From IMG/VR virus record IMGVR_UViG_3300009370_000007, positions 43,023 to 107,022 of that record: a stretch of DNA of 64,000 bases; one strand, 5' to 3'. Of the stretch, positions 17,501 through 62,399 are shown in pieces. The position numbers and the translations under genes are program-made. The first letter of the stretch is position 1. Every line of letters begins with the position of its first letter. Under the pieces are notes generated by a model. It worked only from the letters and a program-made list of their open reading frames with translations, had not been told where the DNA came from and did no database searches. The DNA is from a virus.

Positions 17501-20500
17501 GACGGCACTATCATTTGCATGGTATCGGAATACCGCAAAATTATTTGCAGTATCACACCAAAAATCTCCATGAGGATCTGCAACAACTCGACCGTTTTGA
17601 TCGTAACGAGGATCAGGTCCAAAATAATTCGGATCAGTTCCCCGATGATCGGCCAAGTGGGAAATCATTGCTCTATCTGTGAGGCCCCGGCTCCAGCTCA
17701 TTCCCGGTCCTTCGTCCGAAGTAATGTAGGCGCTCGGCAATAGGGCTTCAACATCTGGATGAATTTCTTCTAATTGAAATGCATCAAAATTTATATGGGA
17801 TGCAATATGATCTATTTGAATCCCCGGAATAAGATGAGTTACATTCGCATTATGGCTCTTTGTCAAATCAATAATACATGAATATCGGTGAAATGTCACT
17901 CCATCGGTTGAAGCTGGAAGGTCAACAGCAGAAACGCTATTTGCAAAAATATGAGAAGCCGATCCCACGTTTGAAGTATACCAAGAGAATTTCAATCCAT
18001 CTGTTATTGCTGTGTCTGATTTAACATATGCAGAATAAATCCATTTTCTTCCCTTTGGTACAAGAATTCCATATTTCCTAAAGGTTGCAATATCTGGGGT
18101 TGCAACTGGTTCAGCCGCTCTGGTACTTCTGGTATTTGCAAATAGAATTTGCATATAACTAGAAGTAGTGCCAGCTATTGTCATCTTCAAACTGTTTTCG
18201 CCAATATGTCCTACTGTATCGTCAATTGTAACAGTAGTCGAGTATTGGGGAATACCAATGGCATATGGCGTATTTGATGCCTTGCTAGTCTCTGTTATTA
18301 AATAATCATAATGCTGCTCATCAAACAAAGAGATTGGGCGAGGGAAGTAGTTCTTGGATCGGTTGGTTGCCTCTAGGTATGCCTGTAGATAGAATGAACC
18401 CAGGCCAGAAATCTCATAGTCAGGCGGGCCTTCCCATCTAACCTTTTTTGTCCCTGGAGGAAATCCTGTGTCTGGATTAGTTGGATCGTAAGTAGTTTCT
18501 GAATAATTATTAACAAATGTTGACACGCTCCATGTATTCACACGATCAAAATCATCCAAAACAGAGGTATTAATCCAAACATCATTATTGCCCAATGGAG
18601 TAGGTTCAGTCGGTTGAATGAATGTTTTAATATCTCGATCTGCCTTGGCTGCTGCATCAGCAGCATCTTGAATTCCTTTAAGTGCATCGGATACTGCCGA
18701 ATAGGCTGTTGCATTAACAACATAAATTGATGCATCACGCATCTCATACCAACCCGATTTTGGATTGCTTTCGGCAAGTTTATTATTTGGATAACGGAAT
18801 ACATAGGGAGTGAGATTTGCCGTTCCAGTTCCTTGATATGTTCCAACAGCATTTTGATAATATCGGAAAAGCTGATTATTATTTGAACCGGGTTCTGTAT
18901 TAAGCCACATATCTCCATGAGGACGTTGATTCGGCTGACCCGTAGGAGTGGTTTCTGGAAGTGGTCCGTATCCTCTCCACTTTGCACTAGAAGGATAAGT
19001 CGCGACTTGGATTTGAGCCGCTGAATTTGCAAAGAAGGTAACAACCTTACCAGAAGTTTCACTATAACTTTGTAGATACATCAATCCAATTGCATTGTTC
19101 GGGGCTCGATGCCACGTTAATGTGTTGCCGCCTCCGTCTTCATGGTCAGTTGGGATCATCCCCTCCGAGTCGTGCGCTCCAGAGTTTGCAACAAAGATTG
19201 CACCGAGATTTGCTGTTCCATTTGGATTAACAGTTTTATTTTGATGAATCCAGACATCACCATTTCCTGTTGGCTTAAAATCATCAACATCTGCATTATG
19301 ATTTTCAAAGAATGCAATGATTTCTCGATCTGCTGCTGCCTGGGCGGCGCTAGCAAGAATTTCTGCCGTATAAACTTTTTTATCACGAATATCATACCAA
19401 CCGGAATTGCTGGAGGCTGTTGGAGTTTCTCCTGGTCCATGAATTGCAGCATAGGTATGAGCATGAACTCCTGTTCCTTGATATACTGCACTACTGTTTG
19501 CAAAGTATCGGAACATCATATTGTTGTTTGCACCGGCCTCAGTATTAATCCAGAAATCTCCATGTGGCTCTGGATTTGGATACCCCGAAGGAGTTATTTC
19601 TGGATTTGGACCCATAGGCCCTGGTGCTTCATTCCCATAGAATGCAACAAGTTTTCCGTCTGTAATCCTTCTTCCAAAGATGACTGCTACACCATCGGAA
19701 GGCTCTTTAAATTCAGATGCAGTTCTATTATCCCCAACCGCTTCTTCCAATTGGAATGCATCAAGATTTACAATATTGGCTGTTCGTTTTATTTGAATCC
19801 CTGGAATAATATGAGTAGAATTTGCGCTATCGCCACTCGTTAAATCAATAACACATTCATATCGAGTAAAAACTGTTTCATTATCCTGTTCTATAAGATC
19901 GAAAGCAGAGGAAGTAGCCGGGTATCCAGATGCGTCATACTCACCATTTAAGCCCAAAATATGAGAAGCCGAACCTACATTTGAGGTATACCAAGAAAAT
20001 TTTAATCCACTTGCCAGGGCTTCATTCGATTTAACATAGGCAGAATAAATCCATTTTTTCCCCTTTGGAATAGGAATACCATATTCTCTAAAGGTTGCAA
20101 TATCTGGAGTTGCTCTAGCCAAAACATCACTTTCAGTATTTGCAAACAAAATTTGTAACATAGTACCGGAAGAACCAACAGTTGTTAATTTTAGACTGTT
20201 TTCTCCAATATGTCCTACTGTATCATCAAGAGTAACTGAACCATAGGCATCGTTAAATGTACCAATGACATATGGTATGTCTGATGCCTGTGAATCCTCT
20301 GTTATTAAATAGTCATAAGTCGGTGCATCAAATAACGAAAGTCCACGCGGCATAATATTTGTCCCACGATTAAATTTGCCCAGGACCCCAGCCGCGTAAC
20401 TTTCGAGATACATTCTTCCGATGGCACTATCTGGAGCAGTATTCCAATAAAGTATTTGTCCATCGCGGGTGACGCCAGTATCAATTGAAGGATATTCTCC

Positions 20501-23500
20501 TGCCATTGAAAGTGTATTTGCAATAAAGATTGCATTCAGATTCTTTATTCCTGTTGAGTCAATAACCTTATCTGTTTGAATCCATACATCGCCATTTCCC
20601 GTTGGAGTAAATGTACTAACAACTGTATCGGAGTCATAGAAGAATGCAAGAATTTCTCTATCGGCAGCATATTGGGCAGCCTTGCCTGCACTAAGGGCGC
20701 TAAGTGAAAGCGCGTTAACAGAATCTATTGCAGAATAACGAACCTCATACCATCCAGATTTTGCCTCTGCATATTGAGATGGTGGCACACCAAAGGTTCC
20801 CCCGGATGGAACATTCTTATATGGTGCTAATTGCTGACCATATTCTCCGTCTAATGTTCCGTGGTATCCTCCGTTATTATAATAATATAAATCAGAAACA
20901 AGATTTGCAGAACCAGTTCCATCATACACAGCAGAATTATTTGCATGATAACGATATAGTGTATTATTGTTTGCAGTATTATACCAAAGATCACCATGAG
21001 GGTCTGCATTAGGAATCTGAGTTTCCCCATCAGAAAAGACAGGACTTAAAGTTGGGTCAGGACCATTATAACGATACTTCTCTATGTCGGTCGGGGCAGA
21101 TCCATCAATAGTCCTACGTCCATGTGGCTGAATATATGTAAAGACCTTGCCGTCAGAAAGCCCCTTTAAATTAGTAAGTCCTACAAAGCTGTCAGCAGAC
21201 ATATAGTCAGAGGGTTTGGGGTTTTGTGATTCTATAGAAACTTCTTCTAATTGAAATCCATCATAATATACCGTCTTTGAACCAGCAAGAGTTGGTTTTA
21301 ATTTTAGTATAATTTTATTTAATTCGTCCTTTGGAGATACTGATAAATCAAGAATTACATATTGTCTCAACCAGCCCCGCAAACCTGCTGTAGTTAGATT
21401 GCTAATATTAGTGGCAGTATCAGTAACAACATTGGCATCTTTGGTATAATCTTTAGAGTTTTCGGCAACAATACCGGCAACCTCAGAAACGCCTCCAGCC
21501 GAATCCGTTTCTTTTGAAAAATATGAAAGTATCCACTTCTTTCCCTCTGGAATATCAATTCCATATTTTTCAAAAGTTGTAGTGTCAGGAGTTCCTGTTG
21601 CAGTTGTATTTGAAAATATAATATCATATGATCCGGCACTTCCCGATGCAACTTTTAGACTACGAGGACTGTTCCAAAATTTTGTAGAATCTAAACTAAC
21701 TGTCCAACTACCACTTGCATCATAAGTTATTGCAAAATCTTTTAGAGATCTACGATTTGCCGTATCTATAGAATAAGCAGCTTCGGGTGGAGTTCCCCCA
21801 AATAATGAAAGTTCAGTTGGAATATAATTCTTCGTTCCAGACTTGGCTTCTGCAAATAACTGAAGATAAAGATCCCCCATGAATCCAGCCGATTGATTCC
21901 CCATAGTAGCATGGTCATTGGCATTATACCAAATTCCTGCGCTGCCAGCATCAGTATTTTGCCAACGAGAAACAATCCAACTATTTGCAGGGCCTCTATT
22001 CGTATCAATCCAGATGTCTCCATTGCCCGTTGCAATTGGTTCACTATCTGAGAAAAATCCTACAACAAAATGATCTGCTGATGCTGCCTTTAATAGACCT
22101 TGATTGGCTGTTAATTCAATTCTTTCTAATTGATTATTCGCAAACAAGGCAAGATTATATGCATTTGCAGCAAGGCTATTTGCTGCATAGGCAACTGCAT
22201 TTACCGCAAGAATAGATAAGTCTTTTCCTTCATACCAACCAGTCTTAGAAGAAGCTCTATTAAATTCATTTGTATAATAAACCGTTTGGGCCCAGGTTCC
22301 TGCATTGTCCTCGCCGAGCCCCCAAGTTTTGGAGAATGATGTATTTGTTAAATATACAAATGCAGCAGTATTATTAGACGTATTAAACCAAAGGTCGCCT
22401 CTTGGATTTGGATTAGCTGTTCCATCTTCCGATATTGCAACATTAGGTCCATAGGTAGGGGCGGGTTGATGTGGGTATGGATACTGATGATCCCAAAAAA
22501 TTAATGATCTTCGATCTGCAACATTTTGGGCAGCATAGGATTGTAGATAAATTCGACCAAAGGCATCGTTTGGAGCATGACGCCATGCAAGTGCTGTGGT
22601 ATGATCGGCTGGTGTATTGGCAAATCCACCAATAGAATTTTGCCAACGATGAATTGCCTTTGTGCTTAGAGTTCCATCGGGAAGAACGGTTTTGTCATCG
22701 CCACCAGTATTTGCATTAATCCAAACATCACCATATTGGGCAGTCAGATGTTTCCATGAACCAGCATAGAAGGTATCTGTATCTTGTGCGTCGGTATAAA
22801 TGGTAACTTCATGGAGGCTTGCATTTGCAGCAAGACGTTGGGCTTCTCTTGCTGCTGCGTCGGCATTGGAAATGTCAATTCCCAGCTTAATAAGTTCCTC
22901 TTCAAGTGTAAGACTTCCAACAGAACTTCCAGATACTTGGAGAGCCGAGTTGGCAATAATGTTAACATCTATTTCACACCATGCACTCGGATCATCGTCT
23001 ATCGTTCCGCTATAGGCTTCGGCTCCTCCATCGGCCCCAATGCCGGGAGTTCCTACAAGAATATATGAGGCATTACTCTGAAAACCTAATGTTGCCGTGT
23101 CTGTATTTCCGGCACCAAAGACAGTATTCGATGCACCACAACGTACCATTGCTTCTAATAATTTGCCACCCTTTGTTGTTGGGGTTCCATAACGATTATC
23201 TCTTAGTTCACCTGAACCAATAATAAAAACATAACAATTTGGCCCTAACAGATTCAAGTCGTCTGCCAACTTGTCGGCATTCGTATGATTATCTGGAGTT
23301 GTTATATTATAACGCCAACGCAGAGGGGTGACTCCCAGTGCTGCGGGAACTGTTTGAATTCCATTTTCAGTTGAAGAAGCTGGTGCGTTCGGCATCATTG
23401 TGGTATCACCATCATCAATCGTTGCACCACGGAAACCACCAACTACTCGATCCCAAATATATACGTCAAACTCTCCTTGGTCTGCCAGTTTAGTGGCCCC

Positions 23501-26118: not shown

Positions 26119-29100
26119 TTAAGTTAAAGCAATTGCTCTTAAATCTCTAATCACAGGAGTCTTATTTCCTGTAGAATCATCAGAGTGCATCACTAATTTA
26201 ATTGCAAATGTTTGGAAAGTATCATACGAATCCTCATATTTTCCTTCATAGGCAATGCGTTCGCCGGGTGTTCCATATTCATATTCTGACACAGGAAGCA
26301 TATCAACACTTTCAGGTGAACTGGGTTTAAGATCAAACCGCCCACTAGATTGAGGCTGAAGCCTGACCCAAGATTTTTGATCGAACGTGTCTGGATCTTC
26401 GGCAGCAAGAACTTTATAATAAACATGAATATTAGTTCCAATTGGTTTGTGTGCAGTAACATAAACCTTAAGATCCCTTGCGTCAAATCCCTTTCTTAAA
26501 TTTACTCTCCGAGTAATATATCGGAAATCTGCATTTCCACCAGAAGGAGAAGTTTCTCCCATATATGTAAATTCTGCATTGACCGTGGGGCTTCCCGTCT
26601 TATTTACCCAAAGTGGATTACTATGATAACCAGAACCAGCGTTTGTTAGTTCATATGTAGCAACACCATTGTCACCAGAATTATCAGTAAGAACTGTAAT
26701 CAATCCTCCTGTTCCTCCACCTCCGACTGCCTCATAGGTATCATCAACTGTTGAGCTGTTGTCTCTGCCATCAGAAATCTTTTCAATTTGAGAATACTTT
26801 AATTCGCCATTATTAATCTTATGTTCAGTATATGACAATTTAACTTGCGTTGGATCAATCATCGGACTAGTAAAATCAGTACCCTCAGAAGTCAGTCTTG
26901 CCTTTACTTCAAATGTACCAAACTCGTTTGCAGGAAAATCATCATCATTTCTTAATTTAAGTGCCTCAGTTAAAGTTTCATATGTGGAATTTGGAACAAG
27001 ATCATCGTAGGCACCATAATTACCATCCTCATCCTGTCCGCGATATTGATAAGAAATGTCTGTTTGAGTTGGTTCCATGTCAGTAAGTCGAACTGCAAAT
27101 GTATGAATGGTACTATTTCCGGTTGCCATTTGCTCGCCCGCTCTTAACGTGAGCGTGGCATCAGAATTTGAGAATTTACATCTGCGAAGTCTAAACATTA
27201 TGTCTGAATATGGATCTTGTTTCCAAGGAGAATGTGGGGCTCCTTGAATATCAGATTTAAACATTGTTCCACCAACTTGATCTGAAGTTGTTGCGAGAAT
27301 TGAATTTTCATGTCCACCAATAGGAACGGCTCCTGTATCAATTCCTGTTCCTACTAGATTTTCTCTTGAATCTGCCGTCCATAATTTATACTTATCGCTG
27401 GCAGAAGAAACAACAAAGCAGTAAGTTTTTCCTGGCATTAAATATGCCGGAGCATCAAATTTAAATGAAGTCCAAGTTGATGCCTTTGTCATATCTGGAA
27501 CTTGATTTCTTGTGCCGTCTGGACTTTCTATGTATGGGTCTGCGTCTGTAATAACAACTTCATCAGCAGTAAGTTCTGCCCATGCATGAGAACCACCACC
27601 CACAGATAAAATGACATTATCAGGAAAATTATTAACCATTGGTCTAATATCTACCCTAACTGGAAGGTCTGCGTCTCCTCCTCCCTTAGTAGACCCAACA
27701 ACTGAAACTTGTGTATTTGGTTTATCGGCAAAGAATAAATCTATTCCAGAAAGCCAAACTCCACCTTGAGCCATTCCGGTTGATGGTATAGTAAATGATT
27801 GTGCCAACGGATCTTGCCATTGTCCCTCCATTGCCCCAACTACTGTGCTCATTGCGGCATCTTGTGTGGCTTGTATATGGCCCTTGAATACAGTCTCAAT
27901 AAGATCAGGATCTGTTGTAACATTTGCCTGGGCATTGAGCTTGCCATGTGTAATCCAATTAAGAGCTTTACTATGATAAAGATCCCCTGCCGTAAGAGAA
28001 ATAGTAGGAGGAATAAGATCACCTGTTTTTTGATTAACGCTGCCTATACCATGCTGTGTAATAACAATATCAGTAATACAACCACCCGAGGTAATGCAAT
28101 ATCCCTCAACGCCGTCAACATCCCCTCCAGTAAATTTAACTCCAGGGAAATTAAAAGTTCCTGTCTCCGTTCCAAGTCCAAAATAATTATAATCCTTTGC
28201 CTCTTGAGAATCCTTGTGAACAATCTTTCCCCAAACATTATCTCCACGGAATTCCCCCGAGCCAGTTTCCCAGGGATGAGTTCCGCCACAAGAAGTTGAG
28301 CCGCCGGGAATAGTCACATCACTAACAATAGCAAATACTCCTTCGCCTCCATCTGATGTAGTACGAAGGGGATATATACCATCAGCTTCTAATGGATTAT
28401 TTGCAATCTCATGAAAATTTGCTTTTTCAAGTTTTGTGAAGTATTTCGTCGTCGAGACAACAGCATCTCTTGTTGTTTCTGTCCAACCTTCGGCTGAATA
28501 CTCTCCATGAGCAAAACTGGTTGTGTATATTGGATTATTATCTCCACGATTTGAAATTGAAAAAGTTCTCGCACCATATGGAAACATAATTTTTTCAGGA
28601 TTAAATGGTAAATGGAACATTCCAAAAAATTCACCATGTCTATTTGTATATGGAACATTTCCACAACCAACAGGAAGTCCGCGATAATCAGAATATAGAT
28701 TATTGGCTACGGGAGCCGCAGCCTTATTAATTATGGTATATGTCGAGCCAGTCGTGGGAGCATCTGACTCGACAATTTCCCGAGAATACGCATATCCCTT
28801 CTTGGCTCCGCTATCTATATACCTATCAATCATGAAAGAGGTTCCCTCACCCGGAGCTTTGACAACTCTTCCATTAGAATCTTTTTGAGGAACTCCTCGA
28901 ACAATATTAACCTGAGTTTGACCCGCAATCATTTCATTTGTGTCTAACGCTCCGGCACCAGTAAGAGGATAATAACCAAAGGAATTTGAAGTATAGATTT
29001 CGGCGTCTGGAGCAAGTTTAATCCAGCCTCCTCGATCTGTTCCAAGATCATTTTTCAATGTTGCATGAGAACCAAAGCGCCTATTGTCTGTATTTGCATC

Positions 29101-32100
29101 TTGCAGCTTTCCAGTAAAGTGACCGTTTCTTTGAAAGGCCAGATTATCTACTACAACTTCTGCACCAGAAGTCTTTCCCTTAAGAATTGCTGTGCTGGAA
29201 CTAAGATATTTTCCCGCCATCCCGCCAGTTTCATAAAATAAATCTTCTGCCATATTATCATGAGACGTTCCCGACGATGGGTCATGATTAACAGTAGGAA
29301 CAATATAGGCAACCGGGTAGCGTTGAACAATCTTGTCTTCAGGCTTTCCTGTTGCATTATTTGGATCTTCAACATAATGCTCATTATATCGAATAGCAAG
29401 CAACGTGGCTCGTCCTTTAAGATTTGCAGCACTTACACTTGGACTATAAATTTCAACTGTTTCATATTCTGTCGGCTTATCTGCATTCCAACCATTCTGC
29501 ACAGAAAATTTAGTTGTTGGTTCATTAATATAAATTTCATTGGCTCTTGATACATATCGAGAAACACTTAGATCGCCAAAAAAGGAATACACCTTAGAAT
29601 ATGGCTTAAGGCCTTTGGCTTCAATAATAATATCTCTATCTCTCATATAACTTTGATGCGCATACTTAGTTCCACCCGCGCCGCCAATTAGTTGAGAAGA
29701 ATCTACTGCCGACATCATAAGTCTATAGTCTGAATAAGATTGAACCGATCCGGCAGGCAGGGTTGCAGATTGAGGACCTGACTCTAAAGTTGCCCCCGGC
29801 GGGGCAATTCCGCCTTCGCTTCCTGTTTCATTTTTATAAAGCCACCCGCCGCGAGAGCGCCAAGGATCGTCATAATAATATGTCGGATGAGTAGAAATAT
29901 CAACCGAAAGTTCTAGTGTTGCCGAAGGATCATATATTCCTTTAATTTCACCAATTTCAACAGCATGAGCCGTTCCGGCTTGTGTTGGCAAATCAGCATA
30001 ACCCGCCGGAGTTTGAAAATTATCTTGGGCTCCAGTTAAATCAATTTGTAGGGGGTCAGGATTGTGTGTCATATCCATCCAACGATCATCTGATGGTGTT
30101 AACTTAATAGTTCCAGAAAAACTTCTTGCAGCAAATGGATTAACTGGCATTGGAGTGGTAGCAAGTGGCTGCTCAATCCAGGCAGTATTAGAATAGTTAA
30201 ACAATACTGTATTACAAGTACCATGTCTCCGAATTCCACTACTTGAAGATTCGTCAACCTTAAAATCTATTTTATTAAGAGTCTTTTGAAATGGTAACAA
30301 AACCTGCTTCACGGGATCAACACAGAATGTTCCGCGAGTATCCCTATTATATACATCAACTTCTGAAGTTCCTTCAAAATTAACTACTAAAATTCCATTC
30401 TTAAACCGATCCATTCCATCAGCGCCAGTTATCACCATATCGGATGTATTTTTTTCTAGTGCATTTAGGGCAACATAATATTCAACATTTTTTAATCTAT
30501 TATCTAATCGAGAAATATCTTCCATTGTATATCTTTGCCGACTAAGTAATTTGACATCAACGTCATCAAGAGACTTTGTAAATGGTTTAACATTAACATA
30601 GGCCAATGTCATAAAGCCCTCGGCATATTGACTAAGAGAATCGTTTGTCTCTTCAGATCGAGGTCGGGGCAATGGTCGAGGAGAAGGCCTTCCCTTTAAT
30701 CTTGTAAACTTCCCATGCCCAGTAACAATTAAGCTATCAATTCGTCCCAAATAGCGCAATACATATGCCGTAATTGGAAGCGGACTAGAGTTTTCATGAA
30801 AATCTCCAAGCTCTGCATCAAAGCTCCGATTCCAAGTAGATTCAAATGAAGTTAAAGCAATGCCAGCTTGATATTTTGTATTTGCAGCAAAATCATCTAT
30901 TTTTCTGACTGGTCTAAAATCAAGAACGTCTCTAAGGGAAACACGACTTCCATCAGTCCTATTGACAAATGTTGGAATATCACTATAAGAAATTTCAGCA
31001 TTTACATATGGTGTAGTACCACTTGTGACTTGAATAAATCTAGTAGAATCATTTGCTGCCTCAATTCGTTCTCCCTTATCAAAAATAGTATTTCCATTAA
31101 AGGCAGAAACTCCATATAATCTTAATGCATAATTTCCATCGCCAGTAGGGGTACTTCTTTGAGTATCATAAACATACCCAGTTACCCGAGAATTTGCACC
31201 CCGAACTTTTTCATTAACGTGCAAAGTTCCAGCCCAATGAGTATCTTCAGTTCGATTATGAAAAACATCGGTAACGTGCTTATATGAATCAATAGAAAAA
31301 TATGATGGGTTTAATGTATCCGAATCCCAATAATCAACAATGGCAAGAACTTCACCCAAATCTTTAAGATTTCCCTCGGCATCCTGCCTTAAAGTCAAGG
31401 TAGCATGGTCATAGATATGTCCCTTTTGTCCGTTATCAAAATCAAACCAATTTGTAATGTCTTTTGCAGTAGAATCTATTCGAGTTGGGTTCACAGGAAG
31501 ACTGGTTCCTTCCGACATCATTGCCCAAACAGTAACATTATAGGCATCAGCAATTCCAAGAGAAATTGTATCTGTATGATCGTTTGCAGCAAGAGAATAA
31601 TCAGCATAATTTCTTGGAACTCCCGAAGCCTCTACACTTCTAATTATAGTGTGCCCTGTTGATGGCGAAGAGGAAGGGAAATTTATATGTGCATCAATAT
31701 CACTATGTCCCCGATGAGAATGAAAATGGGTTGAATTTTGTAACTGAAGAGACTTTAATTTAGCAGAGGCATTTCTAATTTGAACAGGAGCAACTACTCG
31801 AATGTTTGCATCGGCGGCCGCCTGGGTTGTATCAGAAATTGCAATTACTACTCTGGGATACTGTGTAGCGGCGGATGCCGAGCTATCTCCCGTTTGAGGA
31901 GTAACCGTAAATGAACTGGCATTAATTGTCTTACCAGTATCTTTATTAAAGACCGTCCAAAAATATTGTTTGGACGCAATTCCGCCAGCATCACCACCTA
32001 ATGTGGTTGTGCCTATAGGCAAAAATTCTTCAGAATGTTTGGTTTGACTTCCAGCAGTCTGATCCCAATATTGATTATCACCATAATATCCTTCATGTGG

Positions 32101-34746
32101 AAGAAGAGAATACGATCCGCTAGAAAGAGCAAAATCAAAAGTTCGAGTCGTAACAAACGATACATTTCCATGAGGATGATCGGCAGTTCGCCAAGAGGTA
32201 TGGAATGTTTGGGCGCTACGAATTCCTTCTTCTCGCATTGTAACAAAAGCCCGAGTTTCAGAAGAATTAAAGATAGCCTCTCCGGGCTCTCTCTTGGTTC
32301 TTTCAGAATCGTAAGCTACAGTATCTCCGGTGAGCCCAGAAACAATATCAATATTCCATAAGGTTTTTGGATTTATTGACGAGGCTCCAAATTTAATTGT
32401 ATTTGCAAAATGATTCGTATATCCTTCATTAACATCAGAAACAACTGATCGAGCCTGCTTAATTCCCAAACTAATTACATATTCATGATCGACATCTGGG
32501 TCAGCACTAAGTTCTCTATCCAAGACCAACAATCTTGGACGACCAATTATCCCATTACCCTCAAAATGATTTTTTGCATCGGCTCCGTTATTAATTTGCG
32601 TATTTGCTGCAATAGCATTATTTCCACAATACCCAATAACTGTCCTCACTTCACTAGTATAGTCCGGGTTTCTTATTGTCTTTTCATCATCAGTAAATTC
32701 GGAACCTTTAGTGACCTTTATTGCTGACCCAACATAACTGTCGTTCCATTCCGAACAGGTGTTTGCATCCAACATAATCGTTCGACGCGAAGAATATCCT
32801 CCTGTTGATCTCCTGAGCCACAGGTCTGGTGGGCTGGGGTTAGTTGAGCCGGCCGACCAATCTCCCTCAACAGTAATTGTAGTAGAAGTAGAAACTAAGA
32901 CTGGAATATTTCTTAATTGATATTCTCCATCTGCATTACCATTTACTGTAATTGTATCTCCCGTGGACGTATCATCCTTAAGAAGAGGAGTTGTATACTC
33001 TCCAATTGGATCTGGATTTGAATTTGCAAACCCATGCCAGTATCGAGCGTCGGCATGACTAGCATGGCGACCAGAAACGTCTATTGTAAATGTTGTGTTT
33101 GCGGGGTTTCCTAGTGCTGTATCGGCAGCAGTAACAGAAACTCCTGTAACTTTCAATATATTTGGTTGACTAACTTTTCCTGAAACCTTACTTGGTCGTA
33201 CATCAGTCAAGTAAAGCCGATAAACATTTCCCTGTTCTCGGCCTCTATACCGTCTCCCCCTCTTCGTTGCTGCCTCATCGTATGCAAACCCCTGAACTCT
33301 GGCTGTTGCTGCCAATGTTGAATTCCAAGCATTTGCATTTTTGGTTGAATGCTTTACAACTAAATCATGTTTTTGAGAATGTAAATAAAGAAGTTCGTCG
33401 GCTGCCAATCCGCCTTGAGAAACATTAAATAAACCATTAGCATTTTCGGCAAGATGGTCAGAATTAACTGCAACACCATCATCCCCAGTACCAAAGGGAT
33501 TGGTATTTCCGGCGTCATACACCAAAACAAAATTTCCAGGTTCATACAATGAAGTTTCAGTCAACGCAGGTGCCAGATTAAAGTCTCTTGCTTTTGGAAA
33601 TTTTACTTTTTTGGTTCGTTGAGTTCTAATTTCATGTCCCTTTACATATGCTGTGCCGGGGGCAAGTTCAACTATGAAATTAGGATCATCTTTATTAATA
33701 AGTTCCCGTTTGGATGGCTGAAATGGTTTAACTGTATAGTTTCCACTTTCATCATACGTTCGTCTTGCAAAGATGGCTTCTATGGCACTATATTGAGGAT
33801 ACTCAACGTGCCAAACTAAATGTCCTTCTTCAATTTCTGCAATTGGAAACCACTCATGCTGTGGAGTATTATCTAAAAGCTGTCCATCACCAACCTTGGT
33901 AAGTTTTAGGTTAATTCGTTTGCGGTCAGCGCCGGGGGCTGTAAAATTAGAAAATCCAGAAGCAGGATCATATAATGATGCGTCGTCTTTTGAAGTAATT
34001 ATTTCTTCAGTAACCTTAAACCCTACTCTATAAGTTGGATTATTATGATATTTACTTAAAACAATACTCTGCTTATCTGATTGAACAAATTGTCCCTTAT
34101 AATAATAAACTCCCTCATCGACATCATATACGGCACAATTCCCAGAATGAATTCTGTGATTTTTAGATGTTACGGGTATTGATTTTCCATTGAGGTCTTT
34201 ACCACCCGGCTCTCCCCAAGGAAGAGTTGTTGCCTGAGCAGATACTAGTGATTGATCTTCCCCAGTTGGATCAAACACATAAATTCTAGTTGAATGTCCG
34301 AATCCCTTTGTACTATCCCAATCTGTAGGTTCTATGTCATAAGTAATAAACAAGGTATCTGGCTCTGCAATGGTATCATTGACTCCAGTTCCTACTCGGG
34401 GAGCAACATTACGAATAGTTGCAACAATTGTGCCTTCCCTATTTCTGATCTTTTTACCAACCCACCCAGAAACATCTATATCAACTCCATCCGGCCCATA
34501 TCTATCCAATGCAAGATATTGAATTTGATCTTCTTGATGACGATACATTGGCTCGCCCTTGAACACTCGGGAGCCATCCTTGAAAATATGTTGCCCTTGC
34601 CGTTCAATTTGATTCTGTAAAATACTCTGAAGTTGAGTTAATTCTCTTGCCTGTACGGCACGGCCTGGGCGAAATAAAATCTTTAAAAATTTCTTGGCTT
34701 CATCATAATCATCATAGTATGGAAATTTGTTGTAGTCGATTGCCAT
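26119..34746 (-). CDS. DUF4815-type virion structural protein, very long (2875 residues)
   Basis: The N-terminus (YYDDYDEAKKFLKILFRPG, then AVQARELTQLQSILQNQIE and HIFKDGSRVFKG) is the hallmark of the DUF4815 family of T4-like phage tail or baseplate proteins. The family also usually carries a QDPLAQSFT motif, seen here about residue 2320 (WQDPLAQSFTIPSTGMAQGGVWLSGIDLFF). The middle 1500 residues are beta-rich with many Gly, Asn and Thr. The end (RINLRKGFDARDLKVYVTAHKP, FAIKLVMHSD) is probably a terminal beta domain. It lies directly after the gp8-like gene with a 21-base gap, so a place at the baseplate periphery or fibre base is likely. It is much longer than members I recall. Confidence 0.8.
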   Translation of the reverse strand: MAIDYNKFPYYDDYDEAKKFLKILFRPGRAVQARELTQLQSILQNQIERQGQHIFKDGSRVFKGEPMYRHQEDQIQYLALDRYGPDGVDIDVSGWVGKKIRNREGTIVATIRNVAPRVGTGVNDTIAEPDTLFITYDIEPTDWDSTKGFGHSTRIYVFDPTGEDQSLVSAQATTLPWGEPGGKDLNGKSIPVTSKNHRIHSGNCAVYDVDEGVYYYKGQFVQSDKQSIVLSKYHNNPTYRVGFKVTEEIITSKDDASLYDPASGFSNFTAPGADRKRINLKLTKVGDGQLLDNTPQHEWFPIAEIEEGHLVWHVEYPQYSAIEAIFARRTYDESGNYTVKPFQPSKRELINKDDPNFIVELAPGTAYVKGHEIRTQRTKKVKFPKARDFNLAPALTETSLYEPGNFVLVYDAGNTNPFGTGDDGVAVNSDHLAENANGLFNVSQGGLAADELLYLHSQKHDLVVKHSTKNANAWNSTLAATARVQGFAYDEAATKRGRRYRGREQGNVYRLYLTDVRPSKVSGKVSQPNILKVTGVSVTAADTALGNPANTTFTIDVSGRHASHADARYWHGFANSNPDPIGEYTTPLLKDDTSTGDTITVNGNADGEYQLRNIPVLVSTSTTITVEGDWSAGSTNPSPPDLWLRRSTGGYSSRRTIMLDANTCSEWNDSYVGSAIKVTKGSEFTDDEKTIRNPDYTSEVRTVIGYCGNNAIAANTQINNGADAKNHFEGNGIIGRPRLLVLDRELSADPDVDHEYVISLGIKQARSVVSDVNEGYTNHFANTIKFGASSINPKTLWNIDIVSGLTGDTVAYDSERTKREPGEAIFNSSETRAFVTMREEGIRSAQTFHTSWRTADHPHGNVSFVTTRTFDFALSSGSYSLLPHEGYYGDNQYWDQTAGSQTKHSEEFLPIGTTTLGGDAGGIASKQYFWTVFNKDTGKTINASSFTVTPQTGDSSASAATQYPRVVIAISDTTQAAADANIRVVAPVQIRNASAKLKSLQLQNSTHFHSHRGHSDIDAHINFPSSSPSTGHTIIRSVEASGVPRNYADYSLAANDHTDTISLGIADAYNVTVWAMMSEGTSLPVNPTRIDSTAKDITNWFDFDNGQKGHIYDHATLTLRQDAEGNLKDLGEVLAIVDYWDSDTLNPSYFSIDSYKHVTDVFHNRTEDTHWAGTLHVNEKVRGANSRVTGYVYDTQRSTPTGDGNYALRLYGVSAFNGNTIFDKGERIEAANDSTRFIQVTSGTTPYVNAEISYSDIPTFVNRTDGSRVSLRDVLDFRPVRKIDDFAANTKYQAGIALTSFESTWNRSFDAELGDFHENSSPLPITAYVLRYLGRIDSLIVTGHGKFTRLKGRPSPRPLPRPRSEETNDSLSQYAEGFMTLAYVNVKPFTKSLDDVDVKLLSRQRYTMEDISRLDNRLKNVEYYVALNALEKNTSDMVITGADGMDRFKNGILVVNFEGTSEVDVYNRDTRGTFCVDPVKQVLLPFQKTLNKIDFKVDESSSSGIRRHGTCNTVLFNYSNTAWIEQPLATTPMPVNPFAARSFSGTIKLTPSDDRWMDMTHNPDPLQIDLTGAQDNFQTPAGYADLPTQAGTAHAVEIGEIKGIYDPSATLELSVDISTHPTYYYDDPWRSRGGWLYKNETGSEGGIAPPGATLESGPQSATLPAGSVQSYSDYRLMMSAVDSSQLIGGAGGTKYAHQSYMRDRDIIIEAKGLKPYSKVYSFFGDLSVSRYVSRANEIYINEPTTKFSVQNGWNADKPTEYETVEIYSPSVSAANLKGRATLLAIRYNEHYVEDPNNATGKPEDKIVQRYPVAYIVPTVNHDPSSGTSHDNMAEDLFYETGGMAGKYLSSSTAILKGKTSGAEVVVDNLAFQRNGHFTGKLQDANTDNRRFGSHATLKNDLGTDRGGWIKLAPDAEIYTSNSFGYYPLTGAGALDTNEMIAGQTQVNIVRGVPQKDSNGRVVKAPGEGTSFMIDRYIDSGAKKGYAYSREIVESDAPTTGSTYTIINKAAAPVANNLYSDYRGLPVGCGNVPYTNRHGEFFGMFHLPFNPEKIMFPYGARTFSISNRGDNNPIYTTSFAHGEYSAEGWTETTRDAVVSTTKYFTKLEKANFHEIANNPLEADGIYPLRTTSDGGEGVFAIVSDVTIPGGSTSCGGTHPWETGSGEFRGDNVWGKIVHKDSQEAKDYNYFGLGTETGTFNFPGVKFTGGDVDGVEGYCITSGGCITDIVITQHGIGSVNQKTGDLIPPTISLTAGDLYHSKALNWITHGKLNAQANVTTDPDLIETVFKGHIQATQDAAMSTVVGAMEGQWQDPLAQSFTIPSTGMAQGGVWLSGIDLFFADKPNTQVSVVGSTKGGGDADLPVRVDIRPMVNNFPDNVILSVGGGSHAWAELTADEVVITDADPYIESPDGTRNQVPDMTKASTWTSFKFDAPAYLMPGKTYCFVVSSASDKYKLWTADSRENLVGTGIDTGAVPIGGHENSILATTSDQVGGTMFKSDIQGAPHSPWKQDPYSDIMFRLRRCKFSNSDATLTLRAGEQMATGNSTIHTFAVRLTDMEPTQTDISYQYRGQDEDGNYGAYDDLVPNSTYETLTEALKLRNDDDFPANEFGTFEVKARLTSEGTDFTSPMIDPTQVKLSYTEHKINNGELKYSQIEKISDGRDNSSTVDDTYEAVGGGGTGGLITVLTDNSGDNGVATYELTNAGSGYHSNPLWVNKTGSPTVNAEFTYMGETSPSGGNADFRYITRRVNLRKGFDARDLKVYVTAHKPIGTNIHVYYKVLAAEDPDTFDQKSWVRLQPQSSGRFDLKPSSPESVDMLPVSEYEYGTPGERIAYEGKYEDSYDTFQTFAIKLVMHSDDSTGNKTPVIRDLRAIALT

Positions 34747-56513: not shown

Positions 56514-56738
56514 TTAAAAAGGAAGTCTAGAAGTCTTTTCTATAAAATTAAGATTCTGTGCTTCGACTCTTAGTTTCTCTCTGATATTTTCATTAACCAA
56601 TTTTGCAACAGATTCAATCTCTACACCATTCTTTTCTGCATGGTATACGATTGCATCCATATAGGACATCTCTGTTCCCTTTACAATTCCTTCAATTTCC
56701 TTTGAGAAATTGTTTGCTGCGTTCCTACGATATGCCAT
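56514..56738 (-). CDS. 33: gp33 late-transcription co-activator
   Basis: The protein has 74 residues, a short form compared with T4 gp33 (112). It shows the family core FSKEIEGIVKGTEMSYMDAIVYHAEKNGVEIESVAKLVNENI and a C-terminal LNFIEKTSRLPF. In T4 the C-terminal hydrophobic motif binds the gp45 sliding clamp, and gp33 occupies the beta-flap of RNA polymerase, letting gp55 start at TATAAATA. Exact late octamers found in this window support that role. A gp55 gene is not seen here. It lies between the lysin and DUF3445 genes. Confidence 0.85.
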   Translation of the reverse strand: MAYRRNAANNFSKEIEGIVKGTEMSYMDAIVYHAEKNGVEIESVAKLVNENIREKLRVEAQNLNFIEKTSRLPF

Positions 56739-58815: not shown

Positions 58816-59757
58816 CTATATATAAATCTCTCTCCGAAGAACCCTTAACAACAATGCCATACGAATATATAGTCCATTTTTAGCTTGCCTAAAATATGCT
58901 GCCCTCGGATCAGAATCAACTTCAACTGAAATTTCTCCCAGTCTAGGGAGCGGGTGTAAAATTCTTGCATCTGGTTTCATCATTCTCAACACAGCACCAT
59001 CAATCTTATACCGATGGGCAATCCTTTGATACTTCTCAAATAGCTCAAATGATCCTGACCTGAATCTTTCCTTTTGAAGTCGAGTCTGATAAAAAATATC
59101 AACCTCTGATGCAATGTCCTTCAGCCGATGACAGGTACTCCAACTAACATTATGTTTGTCAAAATGCTCGATCAATTCCGGTTTCATTTGCACAAACTTC
59201 GGAGCCACCAAATAGATATGTCCTATATCATATTTAGTCAACAAATATGCAAGTGAATGAATTGTTCTTCCATAATTCAAATCACCAATCAGCGCAATCC
59301 TCTTACCGTCGATTCCATTACATTCATCTTCAATAGTATAAAGATCAATCAATGCCTGAGTCGGATGTTGTCCTGCACCATCTCCAGCATTAATAATCGG
59401 GACAGAACTAACCTCGGCTGCGCGCTCTACAGATCCCTCTTCCGAATGACGAAGAACAATCACATCAGAATACTCAGACACAACCCGAATAGTATCTTCT
59501 AGAATTTCTCCCTTTGCAGCAGAAGAAAACTGTTCGGCATTTTCTGTAGAAAGAACATTGCCGCCCAATTTGAACATTGCAGACTCAAACGAAAATCGAG
59601 TTCGCGTTGATGGCTCATAAAAAAGCGATGCCATTATCGGTCTATTAATTTTTAACTCTGGTAATTTATTATTTGTTTTAAGCCAAAAAGTGGCTTCAAA
59701 AATTTCATTAAGAAATGACTTATCAAACTGTTGGGCCTTCAAAATATGCATACTCAA
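58816..59757 (-). CDS. pyrB: aspartate carbamoyltransferase, catalytic chain
   Basis: The protein has 313 residues, the normal length of bacterial PyrB (about 311). It catalyses carbamoyl phosphate plus aspartate to carbamoyl aspartate, the first committed step of pyrimidine synthesis. Substrate-binding residues all appear in place: STRTR (50-54), the Lys of SSAAKGE (82), LRH (Arg 103), QHPTQALIDLYTI (His 131), GDLNYGRTIHSLA (Arg 164), QTRLQKER (Arg 226, Gln 228) and HPLPR (268-272). No regulatory chain (PyrI) is nearby, so a simple trimer is likely. In a phage it is a metabolic gene that could raise UTP/CTP/dTTP supply. It sits in the replication/transcription operon between small phage genes. 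Confidence 0.93.
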   Translation of the reverse strand: MSMHILKAQQFDKSFLNEIFEATFWLKTNNKLPELKINRPIMASLFYEPSTRTRFSFESAMFKLGGNVLSTENAEQFSSAAKGEILEDTIRVVSEYSDVIVLRHSEEGSVERAAEVSSVPIINAGDGAGQHPTQALIDLYTIEDECNGIDGKRIALIGDLNYGRTIHSLAYLLTKYDIGHIYLVAPKFVQMKPELIEHFDKHNVSWSTCHRLKDIASEVDIFYQTRLQKERFRSGSFELFEKYQRIAHRYKIDGAVLRMMKPDARILHPLPRLGEISVEVDSDPRAAYFRQAKNGLYIRMALLLRVLRREIYI

Positions 59758-59766
59758 ATATTGCTC

Positions 59767-60000
59767 CTATTTAAAAATCCAGGCATAAAAAACATACAAC
59801 CAACCAAAACATCCATGAAGAATTGCCCATAGAACACTATGATTATACTGCCATGACATAACAATTGCCAAAACTACTCCAATAAGACTAAACACTCTAT
59901 ACACTCTCTTTTCAAACCTCGACAACACATCTTGTGTCTTTTGATTATGGTCTTGCCATCCAGAAGGCATGAATCTACTCCAACCCGTATCCACCTTCAA
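59767..60000 (-). CDS. small membrane protein with two predicted spans
   Basis: The protein has 77 residues. A polar N-terminal part (MKVDTGWSRFMPSGWQDHNQ...) is followed by two hydrophobic segments (VFSLIGVVLAIVMSW and SVLWAILHGCFGWLYVFYAW) around a short YNH turn. Similar small proteins with a 'W..NHS..WAILHG..GW.YV.Y' pattern are frequent in marine phages; I know no function. A holin-like role is possible because of size and two spans, but it does not adjoin the lysin. Its start overlaps the sigma-like gene by 26 bases. Confidence 0.65.
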   Translation of the reverse strand: MKVDTGWSRFMPSGWQDHNQKTQDVLSRFEKRVYRVFSLIGVVLAIVMSWQYNHSVLWAILHGCFGWLYVFYAWIFK

Positions 60001-60289
60001 CTAGAGCATCACGAACCTTATTTAAAGCACGGTTCTCAAGTTGGCGAACTCGTTCTATAGAAACCGGCAATCCAGTTTCAATATTAACAATCTTATTGCG
60101 AACTTCGTCAAAAGTTCTCCCCTCATAACTATGCAAAATAAGAATCCTAGATTCACGATGGGGAAGTTTAGCCATTTCCTCAAAGGCCTTTCCCAAAGTT
60201 TCTTTACGAAGAAAATGCTGAAGCGGAGAAAGAGATTCCTCATCAACGATATTTTCCGGGTTAATTTTTTCTACGGGTTGCCAGTTCAT
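59975..60289 (-). CDS. stand-alone sigma-70 region 4-like protein
   Basis: The protein has 104 residues. Residues of about 21-50 (SPLQHFLRKETLGKAFEEMA, then KLPHRESRILIL) match region 4.1. Residues of about 57-95 (GRTFDEVRNKI...GLPVSIERVRQLENRALNKVRDAL) match the helix-turn-helix of region 4.2, including the RxRQLE.RALNK recognition-helix pattern of RpoD. No regions 2 or 3 are present, and there is no room for them. Such a protein could contact the RNA polymerase beta-flap or a -35 element. T4 gp55 is different: it resembles region 2 and lacks region 4. Ribosome site TAGGAGCAAAAA precedes ATG 60289. Confidence 0.75.
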   Translation of the reverse strand: MNWQPVEKINPENIVDEESLSPLQHFLRKETLGKAFEEMAKLPHRESRILILHSYEGRTFDEVRNKIVNIETGLPVSIERVRQLENRALNKVRDALVEGGYGLE

Positions 60290-60317: not shown

Positions 60318-60596
60318 TTATAAGCCTAATCGTTGCCGATCCTTTTCCTCCGAACACTCTTCGCAGGCGTATAGGGCTTTTGATTTCACTCGTTCATATT
60401 CGCCGTCAATAAAAACTCGGCGAACTTGATTCACAGGTTCCTCACAAAAGTCACAAACAAAATCTGCAAGATATTCTTCCTGTGTGTTCTTTGCACCACC
60501 TCTAGGTTCCCGGCGATCCTTCATCGGACCACCAGAGCGGAGGCAGGCATCCATCGCATTATAATCGCGAGGCTTATTAGGTTTCTTGTTCGCCAA
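60318..60596 (-). CDS. small zinc-binding protein (TTG start)
   Basis: I take TTG 60596 because AAGGAG lies 6 bases upstream; a longer in-frame start would overlap the preceding gene further. The 92-residue protein starts MANKKPNKPRDYNAMDACLR, with a Gly/Arg-rich stretch (SGGPMKDRREPRGGAKN). It then has FVCDFCEEPV...YACEECSEEK, two CxxC pairs that should bind zinc. I recognise no family. It overlaps the upstream gene by 20 bases and precedes the sigma-like gene by 28 bases. Confidence 0.6.
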   Translation of the reverse strand: MANKKPNKPRDYNAMDACLRSGGPMKDRREPRGGAKNTQEEYLADFVCDFCEEPVNQVRRVFIDGEYERVKSKALYACEECSEEKDRQRLGL

Positions 60597-60837
60597 GATT
60601 ATCTCCTTCGTGGAATCCACACTTGGGGCAAATATCATTCATAATTCCGCGTGAACAAAAATCAATATTTCCCTCTTTGTTTACAAAACGACTGAGAGTA
60701 CCGTCATTAACCAAATACTCCAACGTCCCCTTCATTCCAATTTCAATTCCATTACTTCGACCAAAATAAAAATTAATACAGGCAGCAGCTATGACCGTTG
60801 CCAATAAAACCATTTCAAGAATTGTTAAATCCAACAA
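60577..60837 (-). CDS. membrane-anchored small protein with CxxC (TTG start)
   Basis: The start TTG at 60837 has AAGGA 8 bases upstream; the first in-frame ATG is 8 codons later and lacks a ribosome site. The 86-residue protein has a hydrophobic segment at about residues 4-24 (LTILEMVLLATVIAAACINF). A soluble part ends in CPKCGFHEGDN, which could bind metal with one more ligand such as the Cys at FCSRG. It is the first gene behind the late octamer at 60859-60866. No family is recognised. Confidence 0.6.
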   Translation of the reverse strand: MLDLTILEMVLLATVIAAACINFYFGRSNGIEIGMKGTLEYLVNDGTLSRFVNKEGNIDFCSRGIMNDICPKCGFHEGDNLGEQET

Positions 60838-60858
60838 ACCAATATTCCTTAAATAAAA

Positions 60859-60866
60859 TATTTATA
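60859..60866 (-). promoter_or_regulatory. T4-type late promoter TATAAATA directly behind a terminator
   Basis: This is an exact TATAAATA on the minus strand, 22 bases before the TTG start at 60837, the same spacing as the gp25 promoter. It begins 7 bases after the terminator stem, so the U-tract of the terminator (CTTTTTTATAAATA) runs into the promoter. This separates upstream transcription from late transcription of the genes below 60837. Confidence 0.7.
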
Positions 60867-60872
60867 AAAAAG

Positions 60873-60897
60873 ACCGGGGAGTGGCAAGCTCCCCGGT
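60873..60897 (-). terminator. rho-independent terminator of the structured RNA
   Basis: A perfect 9-bp stem (ACCGGGGAG and CTCCCCGGT) with a 7-base loop (60873-60881 and 60889-60897) is followed on the minus strand by CTTTTTTATAAAT, a good U-tract. The plus strand has only TTTCGATTTC behind it, so termination is mainly for leftward transcripts coming through 61325-60909. Confidence 0.85.
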
Positions 60898-60908
60898 TTC
60901 GATTTCTT

Positions 60909-61325
60909 ATGACAGAACCCATTGAATGTCCAAGCAATCTATTTTTAATTAGATAGGAGAGTACGAGCGTTATCATTTACGCCAAAGCTGGAAATCATTG
61001 TCAATAAAGGTCTATGGTTGTGCCACCAACCTACTTTATTATAATTAAGACACGATCTTTCTTTGACTAAGCTCGCCTTTCTTATCGGTGCCAGTCACCG
61101 TCCCATTCGGGAAGACCCGTTGTCATCCCTGCCTTAGAATACTACTTCACAGACAGCAAAGTTTAGCCCCAACGAGATAGGGCAACTTACCAACTCTTCC
61201 ACGGGATCGCGATAATCCACTTCGCTACTAACCACAGTTATGGTGTTGGCTACTCGGCTCCCTTGGTAAGAAACTCCTTATATATTATTAGTATACTGGG
61301 TTCAGTATCGTTAAGGTTCTGTCAC
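60909..61325 (-). ncRNA. candidate structured noncoding RNA (about 417 nt)
   Basis: The 506 bases between 60838 and 61343 hold no plausible gene. The ends are complementary: TGACAGAACC (61324-61315 on the minus strand) pairs perfectly with GGTTCTGTCA (60919-60910), and G-U pairs extend it at both sides. Inside are an 8-bp long-range helix (61186-61193 with 61263-61270) and hairpins CGGTG/CACCG (61086-61100), TCCC/GGGA (61101-61112), GGTTG/CAACC (61016-61031), GCCC/GGGC (61066-61083... i.e. 61166-61183 in the GTTTAGCCCC region) and ATACTG/CAGTAT (61293-61308). A terminator follows 11 bases after the closing helix. Together this suggests a stable RNA made leftward. It lacks motifs I know for tmRNA, RNase P RNA, 6S RNA, SRP RNA or tRNA. 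The class is unknown. Confidence 0.6.
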
Positions 61326-61343
61326 GATATTCTCCTGCTATGA

Positions 61344-61547
61344 TTATGAATACACTTCATCTTCATAAAGTTCTTCGTAATAAGTATCATACTCTTGATT
61401 TGTAGTCATATCCTTGATTAACTTTTCTGCATCTCGGCGGCGGTTGCGTCTCTTTTTGTTTGAGTTTTTCTTCCCACCGGCCCAAAACTGTTTCTCATCT
61501 AGATAGTCATCGAACTGCTCTTTCTTATTACGGTTCTTCTTCGACAT
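61344..61547 (-). CDS. small basic/acidic protein downstream of RNase H
   Basis: The protein has 67 residues. The N-terminal two thirds are very basic (KKNRNKKEQF..., GGKKNSNKKRRNRRRDAEKL), and the end is acidic and Tyr-rich (YDTYYEELYEDEVYS). It starts 3 bases after the RNase H stop and ends just before the candidate RNA. It is probably nucleic-acid binding or a ribosome/RNA-associated protein by composition. I recognise no family. Confidence 0.55.
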   Translation of the reverse strand: MSKKNRNKKEQFDDYLDEKQFWAGGKKNSNKKRRNRRRDAEKLIKDMTTNQEYDTYYEELYEDEVYS

Positions 61548-61550
61548 TGT

Positions 61551-62399
61551 TTAAAACTCCTGTATATTTTCCATTAGTAGTTTAAGATTATGTTTCACGA
61601 AGTAGTTGAATAGATTACTTCGATCCGCAGGCTCTTTGGAATACTGATCCAAAATTTCCTTGGATACATCTTCCGGTATACATTCCAAATCAATCAATTG
61701 CTCGTTCCTACGATAGCCGCGCAACATCGCGTCATCGCAAAAATCTTCTGGGTTGGATACCAACCAACCCTCTACTTTTTTAGTTGAAATTGGGCGTTGT
61801 CTTTTACCGGAGAGAAGTACATCATCGGCACTCAGAAAATTCGGAATGCCGTCGCCTCGATCTCCGCGTAGGATCTGTTCTTTAAGAAACTCGCCAGCCT
61901 TTTTGGTTTTGAGAAACTTCTTTTGAACAGGTGCATACTGATCCACATTTAAAATCTTTTGCAGTTGCATAAAATCTTTGTCGCCTGATAAAATCAAAGT
62001 TGGTTCAAACGGACTCTTATTCAAGACAATTGTTCCAATAATATCATCGGCTTCTGCACTGTCCACATCGACAACCTTATATGGAAAATAATCTTTCAGT
62101 TCGTCTCTAATTTTATTTAGCGTTTCAAAGATTTCGTTCCAATTCAAACCGGACTGTGTTCGATCTCTCTTGCGTCCTGCTTTGTAATAAGGAAAAAGTG
62201 TTTTTCTCCAATAATTTCTTCCATCACAACAGATCACAGGCTCCCCGTACTTCTCCCCAAACTTAACCTTATAGGCTCGGATAGAATTGAGAACCATATG
62301 TCGAATCAAATCTTCATTGATCTCTGCATTCTTATTATATGTGTTTATACTTACCATTAAATTGCTAATGGCAACTTGATTGTAGTCTACTAAAATCAT
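61551..62399 (-). CDS. rnh: T4-type RNase H (5'-3' exonuclease / flap nuclease)
   Basis: The protein has 282 residues (T4 RNase H has 305). The FEN/PIN-type acidic centre is visible: VDYNQVAISN at the N-terminus, VICCDGRNYWRKTLFPYYKAGRKRDR, VDSAEADDIIGTI and LILSGDKDFMQLQ. A helical C-terminal part follows (FNYFVKHNLKLLMENIQEF). T4 RNase H removes RNA primers on the lagging strand and interacts with gp32, which is encoded about 7 kb downstream in the same direction. Its start overlaps the stop of the next gene upstream (TAATG). Confidence 0.9.
   Translation of the reverse strand: MILVDYNQVAISNLMVSINTYNKNAEINEDLIRHMVLNSIRAYKVKFGEKYGEPVICCDGRNYWRKTLFPYYKAGRKRDRTQSGLNWNEIFETLNKIRDELKDYFPYKVVDVDSAEADDIIGTIVLNKSPFEPTLILSGDKDFMQLQKILNVDQYAPVQKKFLKTKKAGEFLKEQILRGDRGDGIPNFLSADDVLLSGKRQRPISTKKVEGWLVSNPEDFCDDAMLRGYRRNEQLIDLECIPEDVSKEILDQYSKEPADRSNLFNYFVKHNLKLLMENIQEF

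Follow-up and report, generated by a model that had tools for sequence, protein, structure and literature searches.

The question raised by the locus described here is what a stretch of 506 bases without genes encodes beside a set of T4-type phage genes. The stretch lies at 60838-61343 of a 64,000-nucleotide (nt) piece of DNA, bases 43023-107022 of the 107-kilobase (kb) IMG/VR virus record IMGVR_UViG_3300009370_000007, which is called the window below, and separates two open reading frames (ORFs), 61344-61547(-) and 60577-60837(-). A preliminary description of this DNA regarded the gap as free of genes, and this is borne out, the longest ORF inside it having at most 53 amino acids (aa). The main claim of that description, that the gap holds a new structured phage RNA, is supported by covariation at homologous loci and by the lack of an Rfam match. 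As judged by sequence comparison, the gap encodes a structured RNA of ~400 nt on the minus strand that ends at an intrinsic terminator. Its predicted conserved core (60866-61270, minus strand) begins with helix H2 and ends with the terminator's T-run, with covariation in 9 homologs and profile matches over the whole core, and its true 5' end may lie up to about 61325. The reading that we prefer, with a probability of roughly 0.65, is that this RNA is a trans-acting, compactly folded structural RNA, which has its own terminator docked on hairpin H15 and works as a scaffold.

Homologs of the RNA

An identical copy of the RNA is found in a second contig (L002/L065), which comes from the same phage or from one nearly identical to it. 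A search with a downstream protein of 106 aa gives contigs L066 and L067, which have the same gene order and a noncoding stretch of equal size. Two patterns, one from the most similar block of these RNAs (AGTAGC-N-AA...TAGTAGCGAA) and the other from the region of hairpins H9 and H10, give five contigs of IMG/VR (L070, L089, L093, L099 and L106) and one, L113, of a metagenome-assembled genome with the label Nitrospinota. The pattern matches L071-L076, L078-L088, L090-L092, L094-L098 and L100-L105, many of which lie within long open frames, and L114-L116 are rejected as chance matches, and a final search with a looser pattern gives no additional homologs. Eight further versions of the RNA (L066, L067, L070, L089, L093, L099, L106 and L113) are thus found at the matching gene position in uncultured phage contigs, and the locus has the order exonuclease, small basic ORF, RNA and terminator where the contig is long enough. 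The RNA is found once per record searched. The window RNA is 49-54% identical to the other homologs, and the L089 and L093 RNAs are 66-68% identical to those of the L066 group. Between its upstream ORF and the RNA core, the L066 group has two extra hairpins, TTTTCGTTTCC..GGAAGCGAGAAAA and AGTGGCAA..TTGCCACT (2800-2860 in L066), which are missing from L089 and L093.

In a tree of the exonucleases, the carriers of the RNA form one clade with a support of 92/92, which consists of the window, L089 with L093, and the L066 group; L113, the contig of which carries no exonuclease, is absent from the tree. The RNA has no homolog in the cultured phage records searched with the window, L066 and L089 RNAs, no remote homolog in a scan of other T4-type contigs with the RNA model, and no match beyond contig L113 in 76 other genomes of the Nitrospinota phylum. 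The cultured exonucleases nearest to that of the window, from Methylophilales phage Melnitz and cyanophages, are only 51-54% identical to it, indicating that the collection searched holds no close cultured relative. The presence of the RNA in L113 (DUZG01000082.1) is a weak hint of marine nitrite-oxidiser hosts, the Nitrospinota label resting on the binning of this one 5-kb contig.

Covariation and conservation

The alignment for the analysis of covariation was made with MAFFT from eight sequences, the window being left out. The final model has 87 pairs on this alignment, with 94.1% of the cells paired and two-sided (compensatory) changes in 24 pairs. When the partners are slid by 1-3 columns, only 36-47% of the cells are paired and 2-10 pairs show two-sided changes, and none of 500 shuffles reaches either of the observed values. 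The slid controls carry more of the argument, because the shuffles ignore the kinship of the sequences. RNAalifold, which was given no structure, identifies 28 pairs with two-sided changes. Such changes occur even between very close relatives: L070 has U-A and L113 has C-G as the first pair of H2, and A-U, G-U, G-C and C-G all occur at the first pair of H4 within the L066 group. The window provides an independent test, in which 48 of the 51 homologous pairs, aligned by hand across ten elements, are formed and 24 have both bases unlike those of L066. A covariance model of the 5' domain matches the window at an E-value of 3e-15, the window being one of the nine sequences from which this model was built. 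Compensatory changes so far beyond those of the controls are what a structured noncoding RNA would show. Covariation at the homologous loci had been named in the preliminary description as a check, and these loci, which share one gene position, show compensatory changes in abundance.

The helices AGGUC/GAUCCU and CCCU/AGGG of a first model were replaced by RNAalifold helices, by which the paired cells increase from 91.6 to 94.1%. An assignment of the window helix CTTACCAA/TTGGTAAG to H1 was also rejected, since in the MAFFT alignment of the 5' domain this helix falls on H2, shifted by one column.

When L070 is compared with L066 and L067 in windows of 100 bases, the RNA core is 0.89-1.00 identical over most of its length, whereas the identity of the flanking genes goes down to 0.76-0.83 before the RNA and to 0.22-0.70 after it. 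The homologous RNAs differ by insertions and deletions of one and two bases, and their open frames between stops do not exceed 30-97 codons; these features speak against protein coding. The stretch is, on these comparisons, evidently under selection as RNA. Folding energy is less informative. The minus strand of the window folds better than its shuffles (z -3.06), but the plus strand does so about equally well (z -2.94), so that energy alone decides neither the strand nor the reality of the fold, which covariation did. The similar margins of the two strands would suit a decayed gene, intergenic filler or chance folding without function. The probability of this explanation is negligible, however, because the position is conserved, the conservation of the DNA is above that of the flanking genes, and the excess of compensatory changes over the shuffled and slid controls refutes it.

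Predicted pairing of the terminator loop with H15

The terminator scan identifies an intrinsic terminator hairpin at 60873-60897 (minus strand), which has a G+C-rich stem of 9 base pairs (bp) and is followed by CTTTTTT. Its loop region, TGCCAC at 60881-60886(-), is complementary to GTGGCA, the loop of H15 at 61021-61026(-). In the window RNA, the loops GUGGCA and UGCCAC are each unique. In all eight relatives, the H15 loop is GGGUAC and the terminator loop is GUACCU, of which GGUAC and GUACC are complementary. Both loop pairs are therefore complementary over five or six bp, and between the window and the relatives both bases are changed in four of the five core pairs. We estimate that two such loops would match over five bases by chance with a probability of less than 1% (approximately six registers x 4^-5). 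These results argue strongly that the terminator loop contacts the H15 loop. Because its loop is complementary to that of an upstream hairpin, the terminator seems to belong to the fold as a docked element, apparently recruited into the tertiary structure through a covarying loop-loop contact. The strong terminator noted in the preliminary description is present, but it seems not merely to follow the RNA. We know of no described phage RNA in which the terminator loop docks on the loop of an upstream hairpin, and a literature search for an RNA of this kind gives nothing among open-licence papers, which is weak evidence.

A structured RNA followed by an intrinsic terminator is also the classical layout of a regulatory leader, a riboswitch or attenuator in which the folded RNA controls read-through into the downstream gene, and the seven relatives aligned all have the same terminator stem-loop. 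This explanation is nevertheless improbable, because the downstream gene is not constant. Several relatives have an extra gene of 150-171 aa between the RNA and the homolog of the 60577-60837 gene, whereas the window has the RNA without this gene, and the terminator stands between the RNA and the gene in the relatives. Moreover, the loop-loop pairing supports the terminator instead of competing with it, and we noticed no conserved sequence that could pair with the terminator stem as an antiterminator.

Terminal and internal helices

The preliminary description considered the RNA to be closed by a terminal helix of 10 bp. The perfect 10-nt inverted match is present (60910-60919 and 61315-61324) and becomes a helix of 12 bp when G-U pairs are counted, with its 5' arm GTGACAGAACCT at 61314-61325 and its 3' arm at 60909-60920, both on the minus strand. 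A perfect match as long at a separation of at least 300 nt occurs in only 2 of 400 dinucleotide shuffles. However, the helix is not conserved in the relatives, which have no strong counterpart and, by eye, at most a short AUAGG/CUUAU pairing at the matching place. Its existence is therefore accepted, while its role as the defining closing helix is rejected, and it is peculiar to this phage. The conserved fold is defined, as far as comparison tells, by ~17 inner helices. The 8-bp internal long-range helix of the same description is one of them: its strands, CTTACCAA at 61263-61270(-) and TTGGTAAG at 61186-61193(-), pair with each other and form H2, which is conserved in the relatives, for example as CCGTGAAT/ATTCACGG and TTATATTC/GAATATGT.

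Elements of the fold

All elements that follow are on the minus strand. The most conserved block (61221-61254) consists of AGUAGC-N-AA, hairpin H4 (ACCA/UGGU), which covaries, and UAGUAGCGAA, and its pattern matches in independent contigs. The AGUA...GAA arrangement of this block appears to resemble an internal loop of the sarcin-ricin type. Hairpin H5 (61204-61218) is GGAT/ATCC in the window and GAGGC/GCCTT, CGGA/TCCG or GAGAT/GTCTC in homologs, and hairpin H6 (61166-61183) is GCCC/GGGC, for which relatives have GCCG with CGGC or CGGT. H7 (61121-61155) is TGTC/GACA around the hairpin GAAGUAGUAUUC (H8), and TTGTT/GACAG, TTATT/AGTAG or TTGTC/GACGG in relatives. It is followed by two adjacent hairpins, H9 (61101-61112; TCCC-GAAT-GGGA, in relatives GCTC-GGA-GAGC and ACTC-GGA-GAGT) and H10 (61086-61100; CGGTG-ACTGG-CACCG, in relatives CGGCT-ACTGG-AGCCG), of which the latter has the invariant loop ACUGG. 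H14 (61003-61040; AATAAAG/CTTTATT, in relatives TTGTG/CACAG) surrounds H15 (61016-61031; GGTTG-GTGGCA-CAACC, in relatives GTGTTC-GGGTAC-GAATGC).

AGUAG is the commonest 5-mer over five of the RNAs compared, the diverged window copy included, and occurs 3-4 times per RNA at several conserved places; it is possibly a repeated tertiary or protein-binding motif. The many GGA sequences raised the idea of a sponge for CsrA, which was rejected, the window having no GGA in the loops of H9 and H10.

Neighbouring genes

According to Pfam, the genes around the RNA locus are T4-type phage genes, including those for an RNase H/5'-3' exonuclease, a late-transcription coactivator (56514-56738) and a sigma-70 region 4 protein. 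The exonuclease gene (61551-62399, minus strand; PF02739, PF09293) lies upstream of the RNA and serves as the syntenic anchor. The small ORF 61344-61547(-), which is basic in its first half and acidic at its end, is located directly before the RNA in the carriers examined and has no Pfam or PHROG match. This ORF and its homologs in L066, L089, L093 and L111 share an Arg/Lys-rich first half, KKRRNRRRD and KRETRRERRKNKR. The next downstream gene, 60577-60837(-), encodes 86 aa with a hydrophobic N terminus. Farther downstream, 59975-60289(-) encodes a protein of 104 aa that matches sigma-70 region 4 and no other sigma domain, a possible promoter-recognition factor, and 58816-59757(-) encodes a protein of the aspartate/ornithine carbamoyltransferase type (PF02729 and PF00185), an unusual metabolic gene for a T4-type phage. 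Two very long ORFs of 4773 and 2875 aa (11522-25843 and 26119-34746, both on the minus strand) presumably encode structural or tail-fibre proteins.

In more distant T4-type phages, the corresponding genes are not directly followed by a stretch of similar size that is free of genes. The more distant relative L111 has an empty site, at which the exonuclease gene, a DUF6433-type gene and the basic ORF are followed by the next gene after 15 bases. The basic ORF is therefore not an obligatory partner of the RNA. This site also bears on the possibility that the RNA acts in cis as a 3' untranslated element of the exonuclease operon, where a knotted 3' end with the docked terminator would shield the message from 3' exonucleases or steer its processing. 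The location of the RNA directly after the same small ORF in the carriers, the lack of a recognised promoter of its own and the docked terminator loop, which would guard the 3' end, are in favour of such an element. We consider it possible but rather unlikely, because the same upstream genes are present in L111, which lacks the RNA, the RNA is far larger and more elaborate than the guarding of a 3' end needs, and its 5' domain is conserved as well as its 3' domain.

Proposed function of the RNA

According to the preferred reading, that of a trans-acting scaffold, transcription would run leftward, produce the RNA as the last part of the exonuclease operon and stop at the RNA's own intrinsic terminator. 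Its 5' domain (H1-H5, centred on AGUAGC/AGUAGCGAA) and 3' domain (H9, H10, H13-H15 and H17) would form by the helices that covary among the homologs. The terminator hairpin, once made, would very probably dock its loop on the H15 loop ~120-140 nt upstream by a kissing interaction of 5-6 bp, to which one clean compensatory switch points. This docking would tie down the 3' end and complete the tertiary fold. The finished RNA would act in the infected cell as a scaffold that binds a protein or further copies of itself, and not as a message or switch.

Several points weigh against this reading. No conserved promoter is recognised before the RNA, which is always downstream of the same ORF and could simply be the untranslated 3' part of the operon's mRNA. 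The switch of the two loops is one evolutionary event between otherwise invariant groups, and the sixth kissing pair in the window would compete with the closing G-C pair of the terminator. The window's table of 51 helix pairs is a hand alignment, and RNAalifold gives an alternative pairing for H1. The motif TATAAATA at 60859-60866 is not evidence for a late promoter, since it occurs at chance frequency in the window (6 found, 6.2 expected).

The terminator and H15 loops might also pair between molecules, in which case a ring or cage would grow as every finished transcript inserts its 3' terminator into a following copy. This idea is tentative and we doubt it. If true, the RNA would be a self-assembling phage RNA that uses a transcription terminator as its assembly connector.

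Comparison with known RNA families

In an Rfam 15 search with cmscan at the gathering threshold, no family matches the RNA in the window, L066, L070, L089 or L093, and a search with permissive E-values and filters gives only chance-level matches for the window region, L066 and L089. The covariance models that are not matched include those of RNase P, 6S and SRP RNA and group I and II introns, and those of GOLLD, ROOL and OLE for the window RNA and the homologs scanned. ARAGORN identifies no transfer RNA (tRNA) or transfer-messenger RNA (tmRNA) in the window. The preliminary description, which could not match the stretch to tmRNA, RNase P, 6S, SRP or tRNA motifs and named Rfam with GOLLD as a check, agrees with these results. 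The nearest tRNA called by ARAGORN in the relatives is ~1.6-2.6 kb downstream of the RNA. A 131-nt Rfam tRNA match in L066 (4634-4764, 44.5 bits), which ARAGORN does not call, resembles a tRNA gene interrupted by a long insertion, perhaps an intron, and the tRNA called by ARAGORN at 11559-11634 of L099 has a four-base anticodon (atga). The RNA is not described in the open-licence papers found.

To our knowledge, large structured phage RNAs are few. GOLLD and ROOL, which are often but not always near a tRNA gene or island, build RNA-only cages, the purpose of which is unknown. GOLLD is similar to the window RNA as a large phage or prophage RNA of marine metagenomes with many helices and loop-loop contacts (PMC12286853). 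However, it is often longer than 800 nt and near tRNA islands, its covariance model is not matched, and in the window RNA the terminator hairpin itself is the predicted partner in a loop-loop contact. ROOL is likewise a large phage-borne RNA of unknown function with conserved kissing loops, which are described for GOLLD as well, and without a known protein partner (PMC12286853). Its covariance model is not matched, and whereas ROOL is often near a tRNA island, the window RNA adjoins a T4-type rnh gene. That the window RNA is a strongly diverged member of such a known class would fit its being of the same kind, large, phage-borne and rich in helices and loop-loop contacts (PMC12286853), but is very improbable, since even permissive filters give no Rfam match for the window, L066 or L089. 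The wcaG, manA and PhotoRC-II RNAs are structured RNAs of marine cyanophages that were also found by comparative genomics (PMC2864571). The window RNA differs from them in matching no Rfam family, and manA lies in potential 5' untranslated regions of metabolic genes (PMC2864571). The phi29 pRNA is, as is generally known, a phage RNA the copies of which join by loop-loop pairing, but it is much shorter, belongs to the packaging motor of Bacillus phages, and no Rfam family matches the window RNA. The window RNA most likely resembles GOLLD and ROOL in kind and not in sequence, and would represent a further, apparently unrelated family of large phage RNAs, for which an alignment and a structure model are ready.
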